Part shown: piece by piece, positions 19,779-61,829 of the stretch
Layout: the number at the start of each line of letters is the position of its first letter
Position numbering within the stretch: the stretch's first letter is position 1
NCBI RefSeq assembly: GCF_004135205.1
Contig: NZ_CP035490.1
Span: forward strand, 186,001-250,000
From: Hahella sp. KA22
GTDB lineage: Bacteria; Pseudomonadota; Gammaproteobacteria; Pseudomonadales; Oleiphilaceae
Direction: 5' to 3'
DNA: 64,000 bases
Translations under genes and position numbers: made by a program
The notes under the pieces: model-generated
What the model was told of the DNA's origin: nothing
Database searches by the model: none
The model's input: only the letters and a program-made list of their open reading frames with translations

Positions 19779-21404
19779 ATGTCCGCACACCGTTCCCTGG
19801 CCGGCTTTTGCAAAAAGCTTGCGGTCGCCGGTTTTGCATTGTCTTTCCTGATCTCCGGCGCGGCTAGCGCTGAGACGAGCGTCAACGAAACCGTTCTGAT
19901 ATCCGGCGACGGATTCGAACTTAAACAGATCACCACTACCGACGATCAGGGCCTGTCCCGCAACGTCGAGCTTTACTATATCCACAGCAGCGAAGGCGTT
20001 GAAAACGCCTATTTGTACGGCGGATTGCCGCAGGCGGAAAAAGAGGAGCTGGAGCAGGAAATCCGCGAGGATAACGGCAACTGGCTCACCGCCAACCGCA
20101 CAGGTGAGGATCGCCCCTTCGCCGACACCTTCGACGCCTGGATCATCGACCGCCGCGGCGCCAACCTGACCTCCCAGGCGGAAGCGCAGCTCTATATGGA
20201 TGAATTCGGCCTGCAGCCTGATACAGACGAGAGTCCTTTAGGCGCGCGCTCCGCACGTCTGTTCGGATGCGGCGGCTGGAAGGATAAAAGTAAGTCCTTC
20301 GATAAGAGCATCGACAAGACGTTCAGCCACAATAAACGTTTTGGTCAAGACAACGCCTACATTGATTTCGCAGGCAATATGAACGTGGACGCCGACGTGC
20401 GCCTGGAGTTGCATTACAAGTACAAGCGCAAATTCTGCATCCCCTATAAGTTCAAAGTGCGTCATGTGGTGGCCAAGTCCAACTACGACGTCTCCGGGGA
20501 GTTCAGCCTGACCGGCGTGGCCAAGCACGACTTCGGCAACCTCAACTGGGAAATCGCCGAACCCAAGCTGATGGAAACCGTGTTCTTTGTCGGCCCGGTT
20601 CCTGTCCTGGTGAAACTGAAGCTGCCTATCGAAGTAGGCACCGGCAATATTCAGGTACAAGCCACCGGCAAGATCGCCGCAGTGAAACCCCTCCGTTACA
20701 AGGGTGATTTTGACTACACCTGCACCACCCATTCCTGCACCAAGAACAGCGCGCATCACCAGAATCTGAGCGGCGACCTGCGCAACAGTCTGGGCGCGGA
20801 AATCAGCGCCAAGATCAACCTGGAGCCCTATCTGCAAGTGGCGGCGAAAGGCATCGTCTACGGCGAGTGGTTCCTGTATGCACAAGTCGGAGCCAAACCG
20901 TCTTTCCCCATTGAGCTGTTCGGCTACTACGGCAACCTCTGTGGCGATGGCGACAACAACGGCGTTCGCGAAACGGTCAACGCCGCACTGGGAACCGTGG
21001 ATTTTCGCTTCGGCCTGACCGCTGAAGCTAAGGTATTCGGCGCCTATATTCTGCGTCCGCAATACTGGCAGATCTGGCGCACCGGGCTGGTTTTCTTCGA
21101 CTTCCTGAATCCCTATAGCACCGCCCTGTCCCCGGAACTGCGTCCCGCCTACGACACAGCTGTTCCGACCAAGGTCAACCTGCCGGTCTCCATCCGCAGC
21201 TGCGTCAGCGACATCGTCTCCAGACATCCCCGCGACTACACCGTAGACTGGGGCGACGGAACCCGTGTGGCCCTCAATAACCTGGGCTCACAACAAACCG
21301 TCTCCCACAACTACAGCGTCAACGGCTACTACGTGGTCCGCGTCACCCAAAAAGGCGGCGCTTATACGGAAGTACCGGTGATTATTGACGATGATGAATG
21401 GTGA
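19779..21404 (+). CDS. Exported PKD-domain protein of unknown function
   Basis: 541 residues from the ATG at 19779, preceded by AAAGGAA; an in-frame ATG at 19746 lacks a site. Signal peptide to about residue 30 (AASAE). The central region is beta-rich with several cysteines (YKRKFCIPYKFKV, YTCTTHSCTKNSA) and a calcium-loop-like LCGDGDNNGVRE. The last 80 residues are a PKD-type domain (DYTVDWGDGT, SHNYSVNGYYVVRVT). PKD domains mediate binding at the cell surface. It is probably cotranscribed with the VWA gene and ends at a strong terminator. Function not recognised. Confidence 0.75.
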   Translation: MSAHRSLAGFCKKLAVAGFALSFLISGAASAETSVNETVLISGDGFELKQITTTDDQGLSRNVELYYIHSSEGVENAYLYGGLPQAEKEELEQEIREDNGNWLTANRTGEDRPFADTFDAWIIDRRGANLTSQAEAQLYMDEFGLQPDTDESPLGARSARLFGCGGWKDKSKSFDKSIDKTFSHNKRFGQDNAYIDFAGNMNVDADVRLELHYKYKRKFCIPYKFKVRHVVAKSNYDVSGEFSLTGVAKHDFGNLNWEIAEPKLMETVFFVGPVPVLVKLKLPIEVGTGNIQVQATGKIAAVKPLRYKGDFDYTCTTHSCTKNSAHHQNLSGDLRNSLGAEISAKINLEPYLQVAAKGIVYGEWFLYAQVGAKPSFPIELFGYYGNLCGDGDNNGVRETVNAALGTVDFRFGLTAEAKVFGAYILRPQYWQIWRTGLVFFDFLNPYSTALSPELRPAYDTAVPTKVNLPVSIRSCVSDIVSRHPRDYTVDWGDGTRVALNNLGSQQTVSHNYSVNGYYVVRVTQKGGAYTEVPVIIDDDEW

Positions 21405-21437
21405 GATGGGCGCTGAATAGCTCGTACCACTCGTAAC

Positions 21438-21480
21438 AACACCGCCAGTCTGTTCGATACAGCGCTGGCGGCGTTCTTTT
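21438..21480 (+). terminator. Terminator of the VWA-PKD operon
   Basis: AACACCGCCAG (21438-21448) pairs with CTGGCGGCGTT (21465-21475) with one mismatch, followed by CTTTT. The repeat array begins 8 bases further on. Confidence 0.75.
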
Positions 21481-21487
21481 AATGAGA

Positions 21488-21525
21488 CGCTCTGGAAAGT
21501 CCTTCGACAGGCTCAGGGCGAACGG
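21488..21525. repeat. Solo copy of the GIY-YIG element end repeat
   Basis: CGCTCTGGAAAGTCC continues into TTCGACAGGCTCAGGGCG and AACGG. It differs from the right-hand inverted repeat of the GIY-YIG element (22722-22760) at only a few positions and has the same orientation. It marks the left edge of the 55-bp array. Confidence 0.8.
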
Positions 21526-22140
21526 CGGATACTGGATAACATGGCTCAGTGGGACCCTTCGACAGGCTCAGGATGAACGGCGGATACTGGATAACATGGC
21601 TCTATGAGGTCCTTCGACAGGCTCAGGACGAACGGTGGATATTGGATAGTATGGCTCTGTGAGGTCCTTCGACAGGCTCAGGGCGAGCGGTGGATACTGG
21701 ATAGCATTGCTCTGTGAGGTCCTTCGACAAGCTCAGGACGAACGGCGGATACTGGATAACATGGCTCAGTGAGGTCCTTCGATAGCTCAGGACGAACGGT
21801 GGATACTGGATAGCATGGCTCTGTGAGGTCCTTCGACAGGCTCGGGATGAACGGTGGGTACTGGATAGCATGGCTCAGTGGGCCCCTTCGACAGGCTCGG
21901 GATGAACGGTGGGTACTGGATAGCATTGCTCTGTGAGGTCCTTCGACAGCTCAGGATGAACGGCGGATACTGGATAACATGCCTCAGTGGGCCCCTTGAC
22001 AGGCTCGGGATGAACGACAGGCTCTGTGAGGTCCATGAACGGCTCAGGATACTGGATAGTATGGCTCTGTGAGGTCCTTCGACAGGCTCAGGATGAACGG
22101 TGGATACTGGAGGGCTCTGTGAGGTCGACAAGCTGGATAT
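21501..22140. repeat. Tandem array, about 12 units of 55 bp
   Basis: The core CCTTCGACAGGCTCAGG starts at 21501, 21556, 21611, 21666, 21721, 21776, 21830, 21885, 21940, 21994, a degenerate unit near 22033, 22076 and a broken end near 22124. Units are 54-55 bp: the core, then GAACGGTGGATACTGGATA and a GGCTCTGTGAG-like join. The units near the right end are the most decayed. Long open frames across it (for example to 22407) simply translate the repeat and are not genes. Confidence 0.9.
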
Positions 22141-22270
22141 TGGTGTGGACGGAGTTATATTGGGTAAAGTCTGGAGGAGCGGAGTAACCTCCAAATATCC
22201 CGACGCACTCCTTTTGAAGATCCCAATCCCTTTCGTCATAGCAATACACTGTTGAATCCTCATGATGCAC

Positions 22271-22296
22271 CGTTCGTCCTGAGCTTGTCGAAGGAC
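22271..22296. repeat. Inverted core repeat copy
   Basis: CGTTCGTCCTGAGC then TTGTCGAAGGAC: the core in the opposite orientation to the array on its left, 66 bases before the left end repeat of the GIY-YIG element. Confidence 0.8.
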
Positions 22297-22361
22297 CTCC
22301 CAGAGCACCACAAATACAATTCCAAGGCCCAAAAGAATAATCCTACACTCCCAGCCACACC

Positions 22362-22760
22362 CCGTTCGTCCTGAGCCTGTCGAAGGACTTTCCAGAGCGA
22401 CCACCAATACTATTTATCCCTGGACTTGGACAAACGCACCACCGCCTCCCAATCACCATTAATCAACGCTTCCTTCTTCGCCCGACCCCATCCCTTGATC
22501 TGTCTCTCTGAGGCCAAGGCTTCTTCACGCGTCGCAAACATTTGAGAATAAACCAGCGTCAAAGGTCTACGGTTAAACGTATAGCAATCAGGAAACACAC
22601 CCTGATTATGTTGGTAAATACGCGCTTCAAGATTCTCCGTGTGTCCGGTGTAATAACTGTTATCCGCACACTTCAGGATGTAGGTGAAAAAACTCAATCT
22701 CAAACTCCTTTTTGATATTCATCGCTCTGGAAAGTCCTTCGACAAGCTCAGGACGAACGG
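22362..22760 (-). mobile_element. GIY-YIG nuclease unit bounded by 39-bp inverted repeats
   Basis: The left end 22362-22400 and the right end 22722-22760 are reverse complements over 39 bp with a single mismatch (inside ...GAGCcTGTCG / ...GAGCtTGTCG). The outer part is the core CCGTTCGTCCTGAGC and the inner part is GACTTTCCAGAGCGA. Between them lies only the GIY-YIG nuclease gene, with 9 and 24 bases to spare. The layout is that of a minimal mobile or repeat-mobilising unit of 399 bp. No target-site duplication was identified, since the flanks are themselves repeats. Mobility is inferred. Confidence 0.6.
22410..22697 (-). CDS. GIY-YIG family endonuclease
   Basis: 95 residues. No ATG is available; the TTG at 22697 is chosen because AGGAG lies 7 bases before it (a TTG at 22703 would be too close). 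The protein is a minimal single GIY-YIG domain of the UPF0213/YhbQ kind: FFTYILKCADNSYYTGHT supplies the T-Y-I and Y-T-G strands, LEARIYQHNQG the conserved arginine, and EALASERQIKGWGRAKKEAL the catalytic glutamate helix. Members cut nucleic acid; cellular roles of the short family are poorly known. The gene is enclosed by inverted repeats and surrounded by hundreds of bases of related repeats, so a role in making or maintaining them is a reasonable hypothesis. Confidence 0.85.
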   Translation of the reverse strand: MSFFTYILKCADNSYYTGHTENLEARIYQHNQGVFPDCYTFNRRPLTLVYSQMFATREEALASERQIKGWGRAKKEALINGDWEAVVRLSKSRDK

Positions 22761-22880
22761 TGGATCATTAGGGCGACAGCAAGTATTACTAATAAAATGG
22801 GCGGGGTTCTAGGGGGAAGCGCCTCACAACATTCCGAATGGTATCCTTTCATCATATCTATCCCTCTTGCTCTGCCATAC
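22704..22880. other. Spacer between the GIY-YIG unit and the 91-bp array
   Basis: Contains the right end repeat (22722-22760) and about 120 bp of AT-richer unique sequence with no open frame accepted. Confidence 0.5.
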
Positions 22881-23290
22881 CCCGTTCGTCCTGAGCCTGT
22901 CTAAGGACCTCCCAAAGCGCCACACCATAAATTCACAAACCACCACATAATCCCAAACTCACCTGCCATATCCCGTTCGTCCTGAACCCGTCGGAGGACT
23001 TCCCTGAGCGTCACACCATAAATTCACAAACCACCGCAAAATTCCAAACTCACCTGCCATACCCCGTTCGTCCTGAGCCTGTCGAAGGACTTCCCTGAGC
23101 GTCTCACCATAAATTCACAAACCACCGCAAAATTCCAAACTCACCTGCCATACCCCGTTCGTCCTGAGCCTGTCGAAGGACTTCCCAGAGCGTCTCACCA
23201 TAAATTCACAAACCACCGCAAAATTCCAAACTCACCTGCCATACCCCGTTCGTCCTGAGCCTGTCGAAGGACTTCCCAGAGCGTCACCCT
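22881..23290. repeat. Tandem array, five units of exactly 91 bp
   Basis: The core CCCGTTCGTCCTGAGC begins at 22881, 22972, 23063, 23154 and 23245, a constant 91-bp step; the last unit is cut short near 23290. Each unit is the core plus AAGGACTTCCCAGAGCG, then a spacer reading CACCATAAATTCACAAACC and AAACTCACCTGCCAT. Units 3-5 are nearly identical, unit 2 has several changes in the core, and unit 1 has changes in core and spacer, so the array probably grew by recent duplication at the right. Orientation is opposite to the 55-bp array. Confidence 0.9.
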
Positions 23291-23300
23291 CCAACAAACA

Positions 23301-23336
23301 AGCACTACCCAATATCCCAGCACTACCCAATATCCC
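23301..23336. repeat. 18-bp perfect tandem duplication
   Basis: AGCACTACCCAATATCCC occurs twice head to tail, between the 91-bp array and the end of the Thg1-like gene. It is probably a slippage product. Confidence 0.75.
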
Positions 23337-23390
23337 AGCTCGTCCCAGGCTTGTCCGGATCACTGCGAGCAAGCAGCACGTCCGGGTTCT

Positions 23391-24152
23391 CTATTGTTGC
23401 AGGATCACCGTTTCGATAAATGCGCTGTACTTATCTTTCATAGGCAGTTCGTAGTCGACTTTGAGTCGCTTACGCATAGCCGTTACGGTCTCGCCGGTCT
23501 TTGGGTTGAGGGCTTCCTTCTCGTATTGTTCCCAGTACATTCCCACGCCGCGCTTTTGCCAATTGGGCAGTTCATTGAAGTTAACGCCTTTTTGAAACAG
23601 GTGTTCGTTTTTATTGGCGATGGAGACTTTGCTCAATCTCGCCGTGGCGGTTTCCGGGTCTACGCCCTCTTTGCGCATGGCCCAGTAGCAGTGGGCGTTC
23701 AACGCATTGCGATGGGCGTCTTCGTTACGCCAGCGAAAGTAATCCACCACCAGACGCGGATTCGGCAGTTGGCAGATACGGCAGTCAAACGCGCCGATGT
23801 CTCCCAGCATCAGACTGAATTTAGCGCTGGCTTCTCCGGCCAGCAGGGAGTTGAGTTTGCGCTCCTTGCGGTTGAAGCTGTTGTCGTCAGGGTGAAACAA
23901 AAGCGAAATTTCATCGCTTTGCGTGTAGCCATAAACAATGTTGAATCCGCTGTTCATCAGATGGTCCACTGTCGCCACCATCATGTCCCGAAAACGCACA
24001 TCAAAAGGCGCTTCAAAGTCGTGCGCTTCCTTGGTCAGCTTGGTGAATCCCCTGCCGTCAATGCGCGCCACTATGTACATGCCAGGCAACACGCAAAAAT
24101 CATGGGCGGTCTCATATACCCGCATCTTTTTATCGAGATCGTTAAATTTCAC
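23391..24152 (-). CDS. Thg1-like protein (tRNA-His guanylyltransferase family, 3'-5' polymerase)
   Basis: 253 residues from a GTG start; the upstream kinase gene overlaps it by 11 bp. The family signatures are intact: MYIVARIDGRGFTKLTK with D32, GYTQSDEISLLF with the metal-binding D80 and E81, FDCRICQLP, YFRWRNEDAHRNALNAHCYW and GVNFNELPNWQKRG. In eukaryotes Thg1 adds G to the 5' end of tRNA-His. Bacterial Thg1-like proteins instead add templated nucleotides in the 3'-5' direction to repair 5'-truncated tRNA. Translational coupling to a polynucleotide-kinase-like protein supports a tRNA or RNA repair role. Substrate is inference. Confidence 0.92.
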   Translation of the reverse strand: MKFNDLDKKMRVYETAHDFCVLPGMYIVARIDGRGFTKLTKEAHDFEAPFDVRFRDMMVATVDHLMNSGFNIVYGYTQSDEISLLFHPDDNSFNRKERKLNSLLAGEASAKFSLMLGDIGAFDCRICQLPNPRLVVDYFRWRNEDAHRNALNAHCYWAMRKEGVDPETATARLSKVSIANKNEHLFQKGVNFNELPNWQKRGVGMYWEQYEKEALNPKTGETVTAMRKRLKVDYELPMKDKYSAFIETVILQQ

Positions 24153-24588
24153 TGCGCCACTCTTCCACTATAAATTCACCATCGTCGAGCCGGACGTAAT
24201 ACAGCGCGTCAAACCCTTCCGCGTATTCCGGCAATTCCATCTTTGCGTAAACGCTGCGCAGTCCGGCATCGGGAATTCGCTCCTTGCCTTCTCTGCCGCT
24301 ATTGCGAGCCATACAGTCCGCCAAAGAGGAGCTGAAGTAATAACCCGCCACGCTGAAACGTCCACGCCGAAACAGGTCGATATACTTGCCGCGCCCTTCC
24401 CGGGTCGGGTTGGTATTGTCGATGACCACCGACTGTTTGGCTTCAATGCATGCGCTAAGCAGGATGTTCTCCCGTCGCCGGGTCTTCAACATATCCATAT
24501 TCAGACGCAGATGCGTCCTGTAAAACTGCTGCAGATAAAACGAGGACTTTCCACTCGCCTGCAACCCAATAAAAATCACACCCTGCAC
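24142..24588 (-). CDS. Polynucleotide-kinase-like P-loop ATPase
   Basis: 148 residues; GTG start with a strong AGGAGG 4 bases upstream. Walker A is GLQASGKSS (residues 8-16). NMDMLKTRRRENI and VVIDNTNPTREGR (54-66) match the AAA_33/T4-Pnkp kinase group, as do the late IPDAGLRSVYAKMELP and EYAEGFD. The group transfers phosphate from ATP to 5'-OH ends of nucleic acid or to small molecules. Its 3' end overlaps the Thg1-like start by 11 bp (GTGAAATTTAA), so both are made together; a kinase that restores 5' phosphates would prepare broken RNA for the polymerase. Confidence 0.85.
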   Translation of the reverse strand: MQGVIFIGLQASGKSSFYLQQFYRTHLRLNMDMLKTRRRENILLSACIEAKQSVVIDNTNPTREGRGKYIDLFRRGRFSVAGYYFSSSLADCMARNSGREGKERIPDAGLRSVYAKMELPEYAEGFDALYYVRLDDGEFIVEEWRSEI

Positions 24589-51316: not shown

Positions 51317-52432
51317 GTGGTCAGAGGCGCGTCGTTATGGGTCGCTCTGCTGTTTTATTGCTGCGCAGCAAATGCTGCGCAATATCGCTTCGCCCTGTTG
51401 ATTCCCAACGACACTCCGTTTTGGAACCGGGTGGCGTTGTTTGCGCAAAGCGCTGCGGAAGACCTGGATGTGGAGCTGCATGTGCTGGACGGCGACGCCG
51501 ACCGCCATTTGATGCTGCGGCAGTTCGAACGCTTGCTGAAAGAGCGGCGTAAGTTCGACGCCATTATTTTTCCGAACTTTCTGCAGACGGCGGAAGCCTT
51601 CATCCCCCTCTGTGAAAGCTCGCCGGTGATTTGCGTGCTCTATAACAGCGGCCTCGAAGGAGAGGCCGCCGACACGCTGGGGAGTCCCAAGCAGCGCTTC
51701 GAACACTGGATCGCCCAACTGCTGCCGGACGATATCGGCTCCGCCACCGCCGTCACTGTCGCGCTGATTCGTAATGTCAGAGCCAACGCTCCCGGACGCC
51801 GGGTCAATATGATCGCCATCAATGGCTTCGCCGCCGATGGCCCGGCCATCGCCCGGGAGAAAGGGTTGCGCACGGCGGTAGGCTTATTCGACGACGTCAC
51901 GCTTAATCAGGTGGTGTACACAGACTGGAGCGCCGAAGATGCGGAAAGTCGCACGATGGGGCTGCTGGAGCGCTTTCCTGACACCAACGCCATTTGGTCC
52001 GCCAACTATCGCACGACTGTAGGCGTCCTGGCCGCGTTAGAGAAATACCAGCGCACGCCGGGCCGGGATGTCTGGGTCAATTCCTATGACATCAACCCGA
52101 CCTCTCTGCGCCAGGTAAGCGAAGGCGCGCTCACGATCACCGCCGGCGGCCACTATGTCGAAGGGGCCTGGGCGGTCATCCTGGCCTTCGATCATTTACA
52201 GGGTAAGCCCCGCCCGGTGGCCACCAGCGTGTTTCATACCCCTCTGCTGCTGGCCAATCACCGCAACGCCGGCAAGATCATCGCCGTGCTGAAGCGCCTG
52301 GAAGACTATCCACAGACCCTGCGCAAAGTCGACTTCTCCCGCTATTCCCTTGCCTTGAACCCAACCATCTCGGCCTACAACTTTTCCCTTGAATCCGTAA
52401 TTGAACAAATGGCGCTAACGAGCAATTATTAA
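51317..52432 (+). CDS. Orphan periplasmic sugar-type binding protein (Peripla_BP family)
   Basis: 371 residues from a GTG start after GAGAGG. Signal peptide to about 20. The chain matches ribose/galactose-type binding proteins: YRFALLIPNDTPFWNRVALF, FDAIIFPNFLQTAEAFIPL, MIAINGFAADGPAIAREKGL and WVNSYDINPTSLRQVSEGAL. There is no transporter gene nearby, so it may feed a sensor. Its stop lies inside the start of the five-hairpin repeat described below. The ligand is unknown. Confidence 0.82.
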   Translation: MVRGASLWVALLFYCCAANAAQYRFALLIPNDTPFWNRVALFAQSAAEDLDVELHVLDGDADRHLMLRQFERLLKERRKFDAIIFPNFLQTAEAFIPLCESSPVICVLYNSGLEGEAADTLGSPKQRFEHWIAQLLPDDIGSATAVTVALIRNVRANAPGRRVNMIAINGFAADGPAIAREKGLRTAVGLFDDVTLNQVVYTDWSAEDAESRTMGLLERFPDTNAIWSANYRTTVGVLAALEKYQRTPGRDVWVNSYDINPTSLRQVSEGALTITAGGHYVEGAWAVILAFDHLQGKPRPVATSVFHTPLLLANHRNAGKIIAVLKRLEDYPQTLRKVDFSRYSLALNPTISAYNFSLESVIEQMALTSNY

Positions 52433-52573
52433 CATGGCAATGATATTGGCATGTTGATCATCAGGCGCATGGACGCGCCTGCGCGGCGTTAAGCCGCGGG
52501 AGACAGGGCCTGACATGTGCAGGCCCTGTCGTTGCAGACAAATAGAAGGAAGCTATTTGTCTGCCTGATTAAT
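52424..52573 (+). repeat. Five-hairpin 150-bp repeat cassette, copy A
   Basis: Five stem-loops in a row: AACATGGCAAT/ATTGGCATGTT (52431-52455, one mismatch), CAGGCGC/GCGCCTG (52462-52481), CGCGGC/GCCGCG (52482-52498), GACAGGGCCTG/CAGGCCCTGTC (52502-52530), GCAGACAAATAG/CTATTTGTCTGC (52534-52564). It overlaps the upstream stop (52430-52432) and the stop of the convergent gene (52569-52571), filling the gap exactly. The other copy at 61680-61829 is inverted with four differences by eye. Likely roles are an RNA 3' end or a mobile non-coding element. Confidence 0.85.
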
Positions 52574-53762
52574 CGTCATCCTGTTTGATAAAGGTGACGC
52601 CAGCGATACCCGCCACGGTGGAGGATTTGCCTCCCTTGCTGTCGAAATGATAGAAGCTGACGCGCTCGGTGCGCCCATCATCGAACTGCAGGGTGAGCGC
52701 GTATTCGCTCAGGCGATATTTCCCGGCGGCGCCAGCGTTGGCGTAGGTGGAGACGCCCGCGCCTGCAGACGCCACAGAGCCGCCGGAAGACCGGTTCAGT
52801 TCAAAACGTCCGTCACGGGTGAAAGTGATGGTTTGCGCTGAGGCGATGACATCCATCATGCCCATTTCAGCGCTGGGCATGATCATGGTTGAACCGGCTT
52901 TCCAGGTTCCATCCAGTTTCGCGTTCTTGTCTGCAGGCCATACTGGATAAACTTGGGGAACCTCCCTGGGATCGTCTCCGGGAATACTAAAAATGTAGGT
53001 ATCGCCCTGCTCCTTCCAAGTACCCCAGGCTCTGGGCCGGACGCGCCGGGAAGCTGTTACATCCAGGTCTTCCAACGCCAGGTCGAAATCACGATACAGA
53101 TCGCCGTTACTGAACAGAATCTGAGGTTTAAATATCAGGCTGAAGCCGTTTGTCGAGGAGATCAGCACTACCTTCTCCACCTCATCCCAATCCGGGCCGC
53201 TCCCCTGTTTCAGGTACTTATCCATCTCAGCGGAAATAAGGGACACCTTCACCGCAGGTTTATCGCCTTGGTTCCGGGATGAACTGGGAGCCGCCTTTGC
53301 AGCGTCGGCATGGTGTGGAGAAGTCTTCAACGTTCGATAAAAATCCGGATTATTGCGGACCGGATTGAATTCATCGCTGGCGATGGCTTCCGCCATCGCC
53401 TTACATAGTCGCGGCATCTTACTTTCCAGAGAGCGGCGCATTTTGAGTTTGGCGGTCTCCAGAAGATAGCCCGCTTTCGGGTTGTCCTCAGCGCGACGAC
53501 GCACCACGGCCTCCACCTGCGCAACCTGATTGCGCTCCGCCCACTGCTGGTAAGTCACTTCGCTCACCACAGACAACTTCGCCTCGTTACAGAGCGCCCG
53601 GCTGATGCGTATGGCCTCGATACGTTGATAAACATCCGCCAGCCCGTCGGCGGCGCGTGCAGGCGACGACGCCAATACAGAGACGGCGATAATCGCCAGC
53701 GCCAAAATCGGCGTGCTGCGCCAGGCGTGAATAAATAGGGTCGACCGACAAACGCATAACAT
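52569..53762 (-). CDS. Exported protein of unknown function
   Basis: 397 residues from the ATG at 53762, chosen because AGGGG lies 11 bases upstream and a signal peptide follows (hydrophobic to about 36). N-terminal part is helical (VYQRIEAIRISRALCNEAKL, then EAVVRRRAEDNPKAGYLLE). C-terminal half is beta-rich and has the look of a lipocalin-like or META-like sandwich (GTWKEQGDTYIFSIPGDDP, LSEYALTLQFDDGRTERVSF). The last line GVTFIKQDDD is typical of such folds. No family recognised. It is convergent with the binding protein gene, separated only by the hairpin cassette. Confidence 0.75.
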   Translation of the reverse strand: MLCVCRSTLFIHAWRSTPILALAIIAVSVLASSPARAADGLADVYQRIEAIRISRALCNEAKLSVVSEVTYQQWAERNQVAQVEAVVRRRAEDNPKAGYLLETAKLKMRRSLESKMPRLCKAMAEAIASDEFNPVRNNPDFYRTLKTSPHHADAAKAAPSSSRNQGDKPAVKVSLISAEMDKYLKQGSGPDWDEVEKVVLISSTNGFSLIFKPQILFSNGDLYRDFDLALEDLDVTASRRVRPRAWGTWKEQGDTYIFSIPGDDPREVPQVYPVWPADKNAKLDGTWKAGSTMIMPSAEMGMMDVIASAQTITFTRDGRFELNRSSGGSVASAGAGVSTYANAGAAGKYRLSEYALTLQFDDGRTERVSFYHFDSKGGKSSTVAGIAGVTFIKQDDD

Positions 53763-61664: not shown

Positions 61665-61679
61665 CTAATGTTCCGTATT

Positions 61680-61829
61680 ATTAATCCGGCAGACAAATAG
61701 CTTCCTTCTATTTGTCTGCAACGACAGGGCCTGCACAGGTCAGGCCCTGTCTCCCGCGGCTTAACGCCGCGCAGGCGCGTCCATGCGCCTGGTGATTAAC
61801 ATGCCAATATCATTGCCATGTTAATAATT
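61680..61829 (-). repeat. Five-hairpin 150-bp repeat cassette, copy B
   Basis: Inverted copy of 52424-52573 with four base differences by eye over 150 bp. The same five stems are kept; the differences fall in loops, spacers or flanks. Relative to the leftward gene upstream it begins 5 bases after the start of the stop codon (61828-61830), giving the same gene-then-cassette orientation as copy A. An intrinsic terminator follows 16 bases later. Confidence 0.85.

Follow-up and report, generated by a model that had tools for sequence, protein, structure and literature searches.

A GIY-YIG nuclease gene between inverted copies of a dispersed hairpin repeat in Hahella: a candidate REPtron-like system

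In the REPtron, one resident gene is bordered by palindromes and its cognate repeats are spread genome-wide (PMC8266576). Repetitive extragenic palindromes (REPs) with a CGTC tag are known from five phyla and, according to the 2013 report, "are not associated to transposase genes", a dedicated transposase seemingly lacking (PMC3733652). Here we describe a 97-codon GIY-YIG nuclease gene with a copy of a dispersed hairpin repeat on either side, the two in inverted orientation, in a 64,000-nucleotide stretch of the Hahella sp. KA22 genome (contig NZ_CP035490.1, positions 186,001 to 250,000; hereafter the window). As in the REPtron so described, palindromic repeats border the gene and have relatives throughout the genome; unlike in the REPtron, the enzyme is of the GIY-YIG type, the unit holds no HuH transposase (the enclosed gene has a GIY-YIG domain only), and the repeat tag is CCGTTC or, in related systems, CGTC instead of GTAG.

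The locus also departs from the other families considered. Unlike in an insertion sequence, no classical transposase lies between the terminal inverted repeats. The protein shares its fold with the single-domain UPF0213/YhbQ proteins and with Slx1 (UPF0213 by sequence and by predicted model, Slx1 by the model), but genes on the YhbQ-like side of the tree described below have no such repeats. With GIY-YIG homing endonucleases it has in common the catalytic domain and, possibly, the driving of its own spread; unlike them, it is a single domain of 97 aa, with no intron match at the locus and with complete dispersed hairpin repeats as its ends. Because a defining feature of each family considered is lacking, we rate the system as categorically new, despite what would be a REPtron-like way of working. 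No literature link between GIY-YIG genes and REPs, nor the repeat sequence itself, was found among the papers listed by searches outside which preprints and most subscription journals lay. The gene-free inverted pairs of the repeat described below presumably resemble REPINs.

The complete repeat-gene-repeat unit spans 399 bp (22362–22760, minus strand). Its upstream end in the gene sense (22722–22760, minus strand) and its downstream end (22362–22400, plus strand) are both full REP-like repeats with the CCGTTC tag outward; they match in inverted orientation at 38 of 39 positions, and the next base outward is already mismatched. Between them lies the nuclease gene (22410–22703, minus strand, 97 codons counted from a TTG at 22703), whose product is a single Pfam GIY-YIG domain (PF01541, E 2.3e-19). 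An earlier interpretation made from the letters of the window (the sequence-only reading) had described the ends as one-mismatch reverse complements enclosing a nuclease gene, and both points hold. The repeat core, CCTTCGACAGGCTCAGG, occurs 15 times in the window with at most two mismatches, always within 21501–23270, and not once in any of 100 shuffles. With at most one mismatch, it is found 81 times in the host genome (6.96 Mb in a single contig; 41 copies on the plus and 40 on the minus strand), where its backward control gives 0. Across 30 aligned copies (loci L001–L030 of the 81, several of which come from the nuclease-gene locus), the conserved stretch, CGCTCTGG.A.G(Y)CCTTCGACARGCTCAGG(R)CGAACGG, is the 39-bp end itself. 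Since conservation covers just this end, what stands on each side of the gene is an entire copy of the dispersed repeat.

Our preferred interpretation, to which we give a probability of about two in three, is that a REPtron-like system has its home site here, one in which a UPF0213/Slx1-like GIY-YIG nuclease, together with its cognate repeats, replaces the HUH transposase. Two complete copies of the dispersed hairpin repeat, inverted and with their tags outward, enclose the gene, and this layout recurs across phyla; within Hahella, gene and repeats co-occur, and in other genera some orthologous sites have a unit and others lack it. The nuclease would recognise its cognate hairpin (as a cruciform, a single strand or an inverted pair) and cut it, and repair of the cut would spread inverted repeat pairs as non-autonomous elements and occasionally move the whole ~400-bp unit. 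A sister clade, GVT, would act likewise on CGTC REPs (dRS3 and kin). Where a unit is lost, a single hybrid palindrome seems to stay behind, owing to the short direct repeats that the palindromic stems provide. The sequence-only reading had already proposed a non-transposase partner of the repeat family, comparable in logic to REPs and RAYTs and built on another nuclease fold; enrichment and clade matching, presented next, support that partnership, and action on the repeat would follow the scheme above.

A tblastn-confirmed scan returned 39 loci encoding relatives of the nuclease, in Pseudomonadota, Chloroflexota, Nitrospirota, Cyanobacteriota and other hosts. After one of them was dropped for its short flank (L053), an inverted repeat scoring at least 15 spanned the gene at 24 of 38 loci, compared with 0 of 760 random windows from the same loci. 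The enrichment around GIY-YIG genes in other genomes that the sequence-only reading anticipated was thus strongly positive, and it extends to CGTC REPs. PF01541 genes listed in 25 genomes holding such loci gave 100 stretches, 98 of which were analysed and 58 of which were small genes passing the filters; 23 had no inverted-repeat score (22 UvrC-type stretches ending before the stop codon, and L242 with its short flank), and a further 17 were left out for a product of at least 130 aa or a frame of at least 500 aa. Among the 58, a scoring inverted repeat accompanied 21/27 genes of the GVT type (VYILAS..GTLYIGVT), 4/13 of the GHT type, 4/7 of the VGS type and 1/11 others, versus 1/542 random windows. 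The GHT count is an underestimate, because some of the left-out frames are GHT genes reading through into the repeat; L231, for example, scores 11.5 from its stop codon, and the same gene entered as L054 scores 33.5. In 12 plasmid records picked non-randomly from listings of 21 and 34 (a few common to both), eight score at least 22.5, and L324, L328, L330 and L331 score 7.5–10, the first, third and fourth of these carrying a repeat on one side despite the low score. Unit size is also conserved: of 24 tag-outward units taken from repeat-bearing rows, the KA22 unit included, 23 measure 352–421 bp between motif edges and one measures 597 bp.

The repeats beside GVT genes have a CGTC (or TGTC) tag, a mostly AT-first stem of 8–9 bp, a loop of 4–5 nt and usually a CCA tail (for example at L248, L320, L321 and L322). 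They match CGTC REPs in tag, AT-first stem, short loop and CCA tail, the motif being taken from the text of PMC3733652; as published there, those REPs have no dedicated enzyme, whereas the repeats described here enclose a GIY-YIG gene. Several taxa named in the same article show the pairing. One is Neisseria, where an N. gonorrhoeae record filed as a plasmid (L320) carries dRS3-like copies; the others are Bradyrhizobium (L057 and L059, with L238 and L249 in the same genomes), Azospirillum lipoferum (L321), Sinorhizobium meliloti (L322) and Novosphingobium aromaticivorans (L323). The window repeat falls outside the published definition, with CCGTTC instead of a CGTC, TGTC or CCTC tag, a stem of ~5 bp, an 11-nt loop and no conserved CCA tail in 194 copies. 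L272, with a CCTC tag, an ATCCT stem and a window-type loop, looks intermediate between the two. The repeats nearest GVT-clade genes on the two sides are tag-outward in 13 of 22 rows.

The association was also measured in an even sample of the same phylum (299 genomes, at least 90% complete). A strong GVT match (E <= 1e-20) was present in 79 of these, a count from which genes may be missing since the protein search scored at most 17 candidates per genome. At least 10 copies of a CGTC sub-pattern, which covers one loop type only and whose backward control is 0 in all rows, occurred together with the gene in 25 genomes; copies only were found in 10, the gene only in 54 and neither in 210 (odds ratio 9.7, p 3e-9, with the relatedness of the sampled genomes ignored; 6.0–7.4 at copy cut-offs of 1, 5 and 20). 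The single loop type may explain part of the 54 gene-only genomes. At 29 of the 30 GVT loci returned from this sample (L371 was left out, as its motif was not found), an inverted repeat was present in 18 versus 0 of 371 windows, a CGTC hairpin on both sides in 12 versus 0 of 371, and one on at least one side in 20 versus 33 of 371.

If this holds, CGTC REPs, left without an enzyme in 2013 (PMC3733652), gain a testable origin through a protein of ~97 residues and a 40-nt substrate. The data suggest the GIY-YIG family as the missing partner of a common bacterial repeat class, which would be a second, unrelated solution to the spreading of REPs beside the HuH RAYTs and would give a function to many annotated "GIY-YIG nuclease family proteins". 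A broader proposal, for which we put the odds somewhat short of even, is that these nucleases form an ancient and very widespread class of mobile elements of ~350–420 bp, each a single-domain nuclease gene between two hairpin ends and far smaller than ordinary insertion sequences. The CGTC REPs (dRS3 and kin) as well as the TTCGACARGCTCAG repeats would then owe their origin and their continuing maintenance to such elements, each nuclease clade being matched to its own hairpin.

The match between enzyme and repeat was followed on a tree of 127 rows built from few columns and leaving many forks open. On its YhbQ-like side none of the 27 rows had a repeat, and among the other 100 rows 25 were without one. 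Deduplication left 112 rows. A window-type repeat accompanied 25 of the 29 GHT rows; of the 42 GVT rows, 27 had the CGTC type, 2 a window-like loop and 13 none; and of the 11 VGS rows, 7 had a Rhizobiales type (CCTGAGG...CTCGAAGG), 2 the window type and 2 none. Among 24 rows called YhbQ-like by motif and small size, 23 had no repeat, the one that did (L321) being placed with GVT by the tree, and six rows left unassigned by motif comprised one window type, two CGTC and three without repeat. No row in the 112 carried two repeat types. Along the 67 repeat-bearing rows the repeat type has to change 5 times; 300 shuffles required 26.9 changes on average and never fewer than 19. Both clades are repeat-bracketed in eight genomes. 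In six of them every gene is matched to the type of its clade; G075 and G078, the Chloroflexota genomes, do not fit, their GVT genes carrying window-like loops. The hairpin rule finds any motif in 72 of 751 background windows, and the same type on both sides in 8 of 751 versus 39 of 112 genes. Judged from these comparisons of sequence, repeat type follows enzyme clade, and the match suggests that each enzyme recognises its own repeat.

This pattern bears on the alternative that survives best, though we consider it unlikely: the enzyme would be a structure-selective resolvase that clears cruciforms or hairpins formed by the repeats, which are themselves spread by something else. After UPF0213, the nearest solved folds to the protein model are those of Slx1, a structure-selective endonuclease family (PMC9071465), and four Hahella species have the gene at the same place, as expected of a resident gene. 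A resolvase, however, would not have to be enclosed by two whole, tag-outward repeats at a conserved distance of ~350–420 bp, nor would each clade need to match its own repeat type; and no transposase was present among the five proteins scanned at the locus.

Fifty-eight genomes, the host's own and those of relatives, were compared for the gene (a close gene being a match at E below 1e-30) and for copies of TTCGACARGCTCAG. The six genomes with a close gene have 83, 88, 47, 58, 232 and 4 copies; the first four are Hahella, the fifth is G043, and the three Hahella genomes without the gene have 0, 2 and 0. The other 49 gene-free genomes reach a maximum of 12 (G021), the rest having 0–2. Gene-free pairs keep the tag-outward layout, in 26 of 26 close pairs among 68 listed G043 copies (of 232) and, once the nuclease-gene locus is set aside, in 21 of 28 near neighbours among the exact copies in G000. 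Of two isolated Hahella pairs, L128 is kept in place in G001, G002 and G005, and the two flanks of L137 match different places in relatives.

At orthologous sites in other genera, the unit is variably present. In Azospirillum lipoferum 4B it separates sufB from sufC and is absent from the other 11 listed Azospirillum rows, four of which were aligned. In Sphingobium, the interval between fnrL and a regulator gene holds the unit in 7 of 11 records, a single palindrome in TYG74 and TYG64, and neither in TYG72 and TYG65. Shinella WSC3-e, WSD5-1 and HZN7 have a unit that three aligned relatives lack. In the gltA-lpxB interval of Sinorhizobium K101, whose flanks are 93–94% identical to those of S. 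meliloti, one hybrid palindrome replaces the gene, followed by an outer right-hand repeat also present in S. meliloti. In the hybrid palindromes, the outer portions of the left and right repeats are joined. Each palindrome holds the stem in both senses, so that any inverted pair contains short direct repeats at which a deletion could arise. An identical location in all relatives, which the sequence-only reading had named as a sign against its proposal, is what is seen within Hahella, where the four carriers share one site, and not in the other genera. In the S. meliloti gltA-lpxB interval (L322), the full unit is preceded by what seems to be the 3' portion of another GIY-YIG gene, accompanied by repeats of its own, which resembles the outcome of a unit duplication.

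The gene-free Sphingobium TYG64 and TYG74 and Sinorhizobium K101 sites, each with one palindrome made of the outer halves, look like an unoccupied target, and GIY-YIG is a known fold of homing endonucleases. The gene could on this account be a homing endonuclease gene that invades single palindromes, the repeats being its insertion sites and not its own ends. We hold this to be less likely still than a resolvase: each flank is a complete hairpin and no half-site, the gene-free pairs keep the same outward layout, and the protein is one domain of 97 aa, where in GIY-YIG homing enzymes a further domain for DNA recognition is usual.

To describe the repeat itself, 194 distinct copies were gathered by a search pattern in which the loop and a single stem pair are set and the outer tag is left free. 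The six bases ahead of the stem read CCGTTC by majority at each position (156–188 of 194 copies). The next four stem positions form Watson-Crick pairs in 97, 95, 91 and 74% of copies, above all of 1000 shuffles, which overstate the significance as copies within one genome are related; at four offsets beyond the stem, these copies show no pairing excess. The window repeat thus has a covarying stem of four positions, plus one fixed by the pattern, and an 11-nt loop. Several compensatory pair types occur in the stem, differing on both sides, and this is direct evidence for structure; because the stem co-varies, the structure is under selection. An inverted pair from G043 folds far better than shuffles (z -4.6), and a lone CGTC REP reaches the same value (z -4.6). 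A variant whose inner part is one base longer (TTCGACTTCGCTCAG or TTCGACTCCGCTCAG) was seen beside the GHT-clade genes of L038, L042, L070 and L330, and is possibly a further subtype.

The strong foldback of the G043 pair would also suit repeats that act on transcripts, as terminators or mRNA stabilisers around a small gene, the association then arising from selection on expression; REPs often lie downstream of genes, and many are plausibly transcribed (PMC3733652). Such an origin is very improbable, as it leaves unexplained the specificity for GIY-YIG genes (0/760 and 1/542 random windows), the clade matching and the absence of repeats at YhbQ-like genes. Chance or an assembly artefact can be dismissed: many of the 39 relatives are metagenome-assembled genomes open to mis-binning, but complete genomes and named isolates show the pairing too and the controls are at or near zero.

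Several observations weigh against a REPtron-like home site. A single window-type repeat folds no better than shuffles, and 14 of the 38 relative loci have no scoring inverted repeat. G029 has the gene and only 4 repeat copies, and G021 has 12 exact TTCGACARGCTCAG copies, 10 of them in one orientation, with no close GIY-YIG partner. The gene-free Hahella genomes are drafts of 140–160 contigs that possibly hide repeats; the Hahella draft G005, in 130 contigs, still shows 58 copies. The unit occupies one site in all four Hahella carriers (G000, G001, G002 and G005), and no empty site for it was found in the three non-carriers, which gave only a 69% neighbour-gene match, in G006; relatives of G043, with flanks mostly 68–83% identical, gave no clean junction, and near searches starting at L326 and L325 turned up no empty site that could be used. 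The intergenic flanks are too diverged for exact junctions, and a target-site duplication could not be defined; the hybrid palindromes can be explained by ordinary, nuclease-free deletion between short direct repeats. In the even phylum sample, the odds ratio takes no account of relatedness, 45 of the 79 GVT-gene genomes have 0–2 matches to the CGTC sub-pattern, and 10 of the 35 genomes with at least 10 copies have no strong partner. In 7 of these 10 the GIY-YIG matches are solely UvrC-sized or marginal, in G319 and G360 small GIY-YIG genes have no CGTC hairpin alongside, and the small gene of the tenth genome, G291, was not located; such partnerless repeats may be relics or may speak against the model. 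Cleavage of the repeat by the nuclease, and the mobilisation that would follow, are predictions from sequence.

The AlphaFold model of the nuclease itself has a predicted local distance difference test score (pLDDT) of 93.4. The closest solved folds to the model are the UPF0213 proteins BH0048 and EF2693 (1zg2 and 1ywl), then, more weakly, Slx1, and a sequence search returns the same two UPF0213 entries. Residues invariant in a 26-protein alignment of the window clade include Y18, G20, R28, H32 and E66, and the GVT clade keeps Y15, G17, R25, H29 and E62; we take these two sets to correspond and to belong to the GIY-YIG catalytic set. A TTG at 22697 is more likely the start codon than that at 22703, because AAGGAG stands at 22705–22710. 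Two other PF01541 matches occur in the genome, in frames of 146 aa and 613 aa, the latter taken for UvrC. NCBIfam, PHROGs and Rfam gave no match, and the 23 matches in phage records are all below 60% identity. The closest named relative at the locus is Hahella sp. HN01 (94% protein identity, with syntenic neighbours).

On both sides the unit is flanked by further copies of the repeat. A left tandem array (21488–22016, plus strand) has a 55-bp period and 9.5 copies (Tandem Repeats Finder, 21499–22016), and a right array (22872–23287, minus strand) a 91-bp period and 4.6 copies; the two run in opposite orientations. Between the left array and the unit lie an additional copy at 22064–22100 (plus strand, core at 22076–22092) and a single copy in the opposite orientation at 22270–22306 (minus strand, core at 22278–22294). 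The listing of core copies bears out the earlier description of the end sequence as the core of both arrays in opposite orientations; the sequence noted at 21488 is indeed a copy of the repeat, on the plus strand, but does not stand alone, being the first unit of the left array. Positions 21000–24000 gave no Rfam match.

Directly past the right array lies an 18-bp short tandem repeat (23301–23347). The array is adjoined by a gene for a Thg1-like tRNA-His guanylyltransferase (23391–24152, minus strand; PF04446 and PF14413), a protein unusual in bacteria, which is overlapped by an AAA_33 gene (24142–24588, minus strand). Elsewhere in the window, an unrelated dispersed repeat of ~150 bp occurs at 52426–52576 (plus strand) and 61679–61827 (minus strand). 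A G002 copy is 93–94% identical to it, and G006 has a 76% match. Among the Hahella genomes, dozens of its copies are listed from G000, G001 and G002, and G005 has many; as RNA, the repeat folds strongly.
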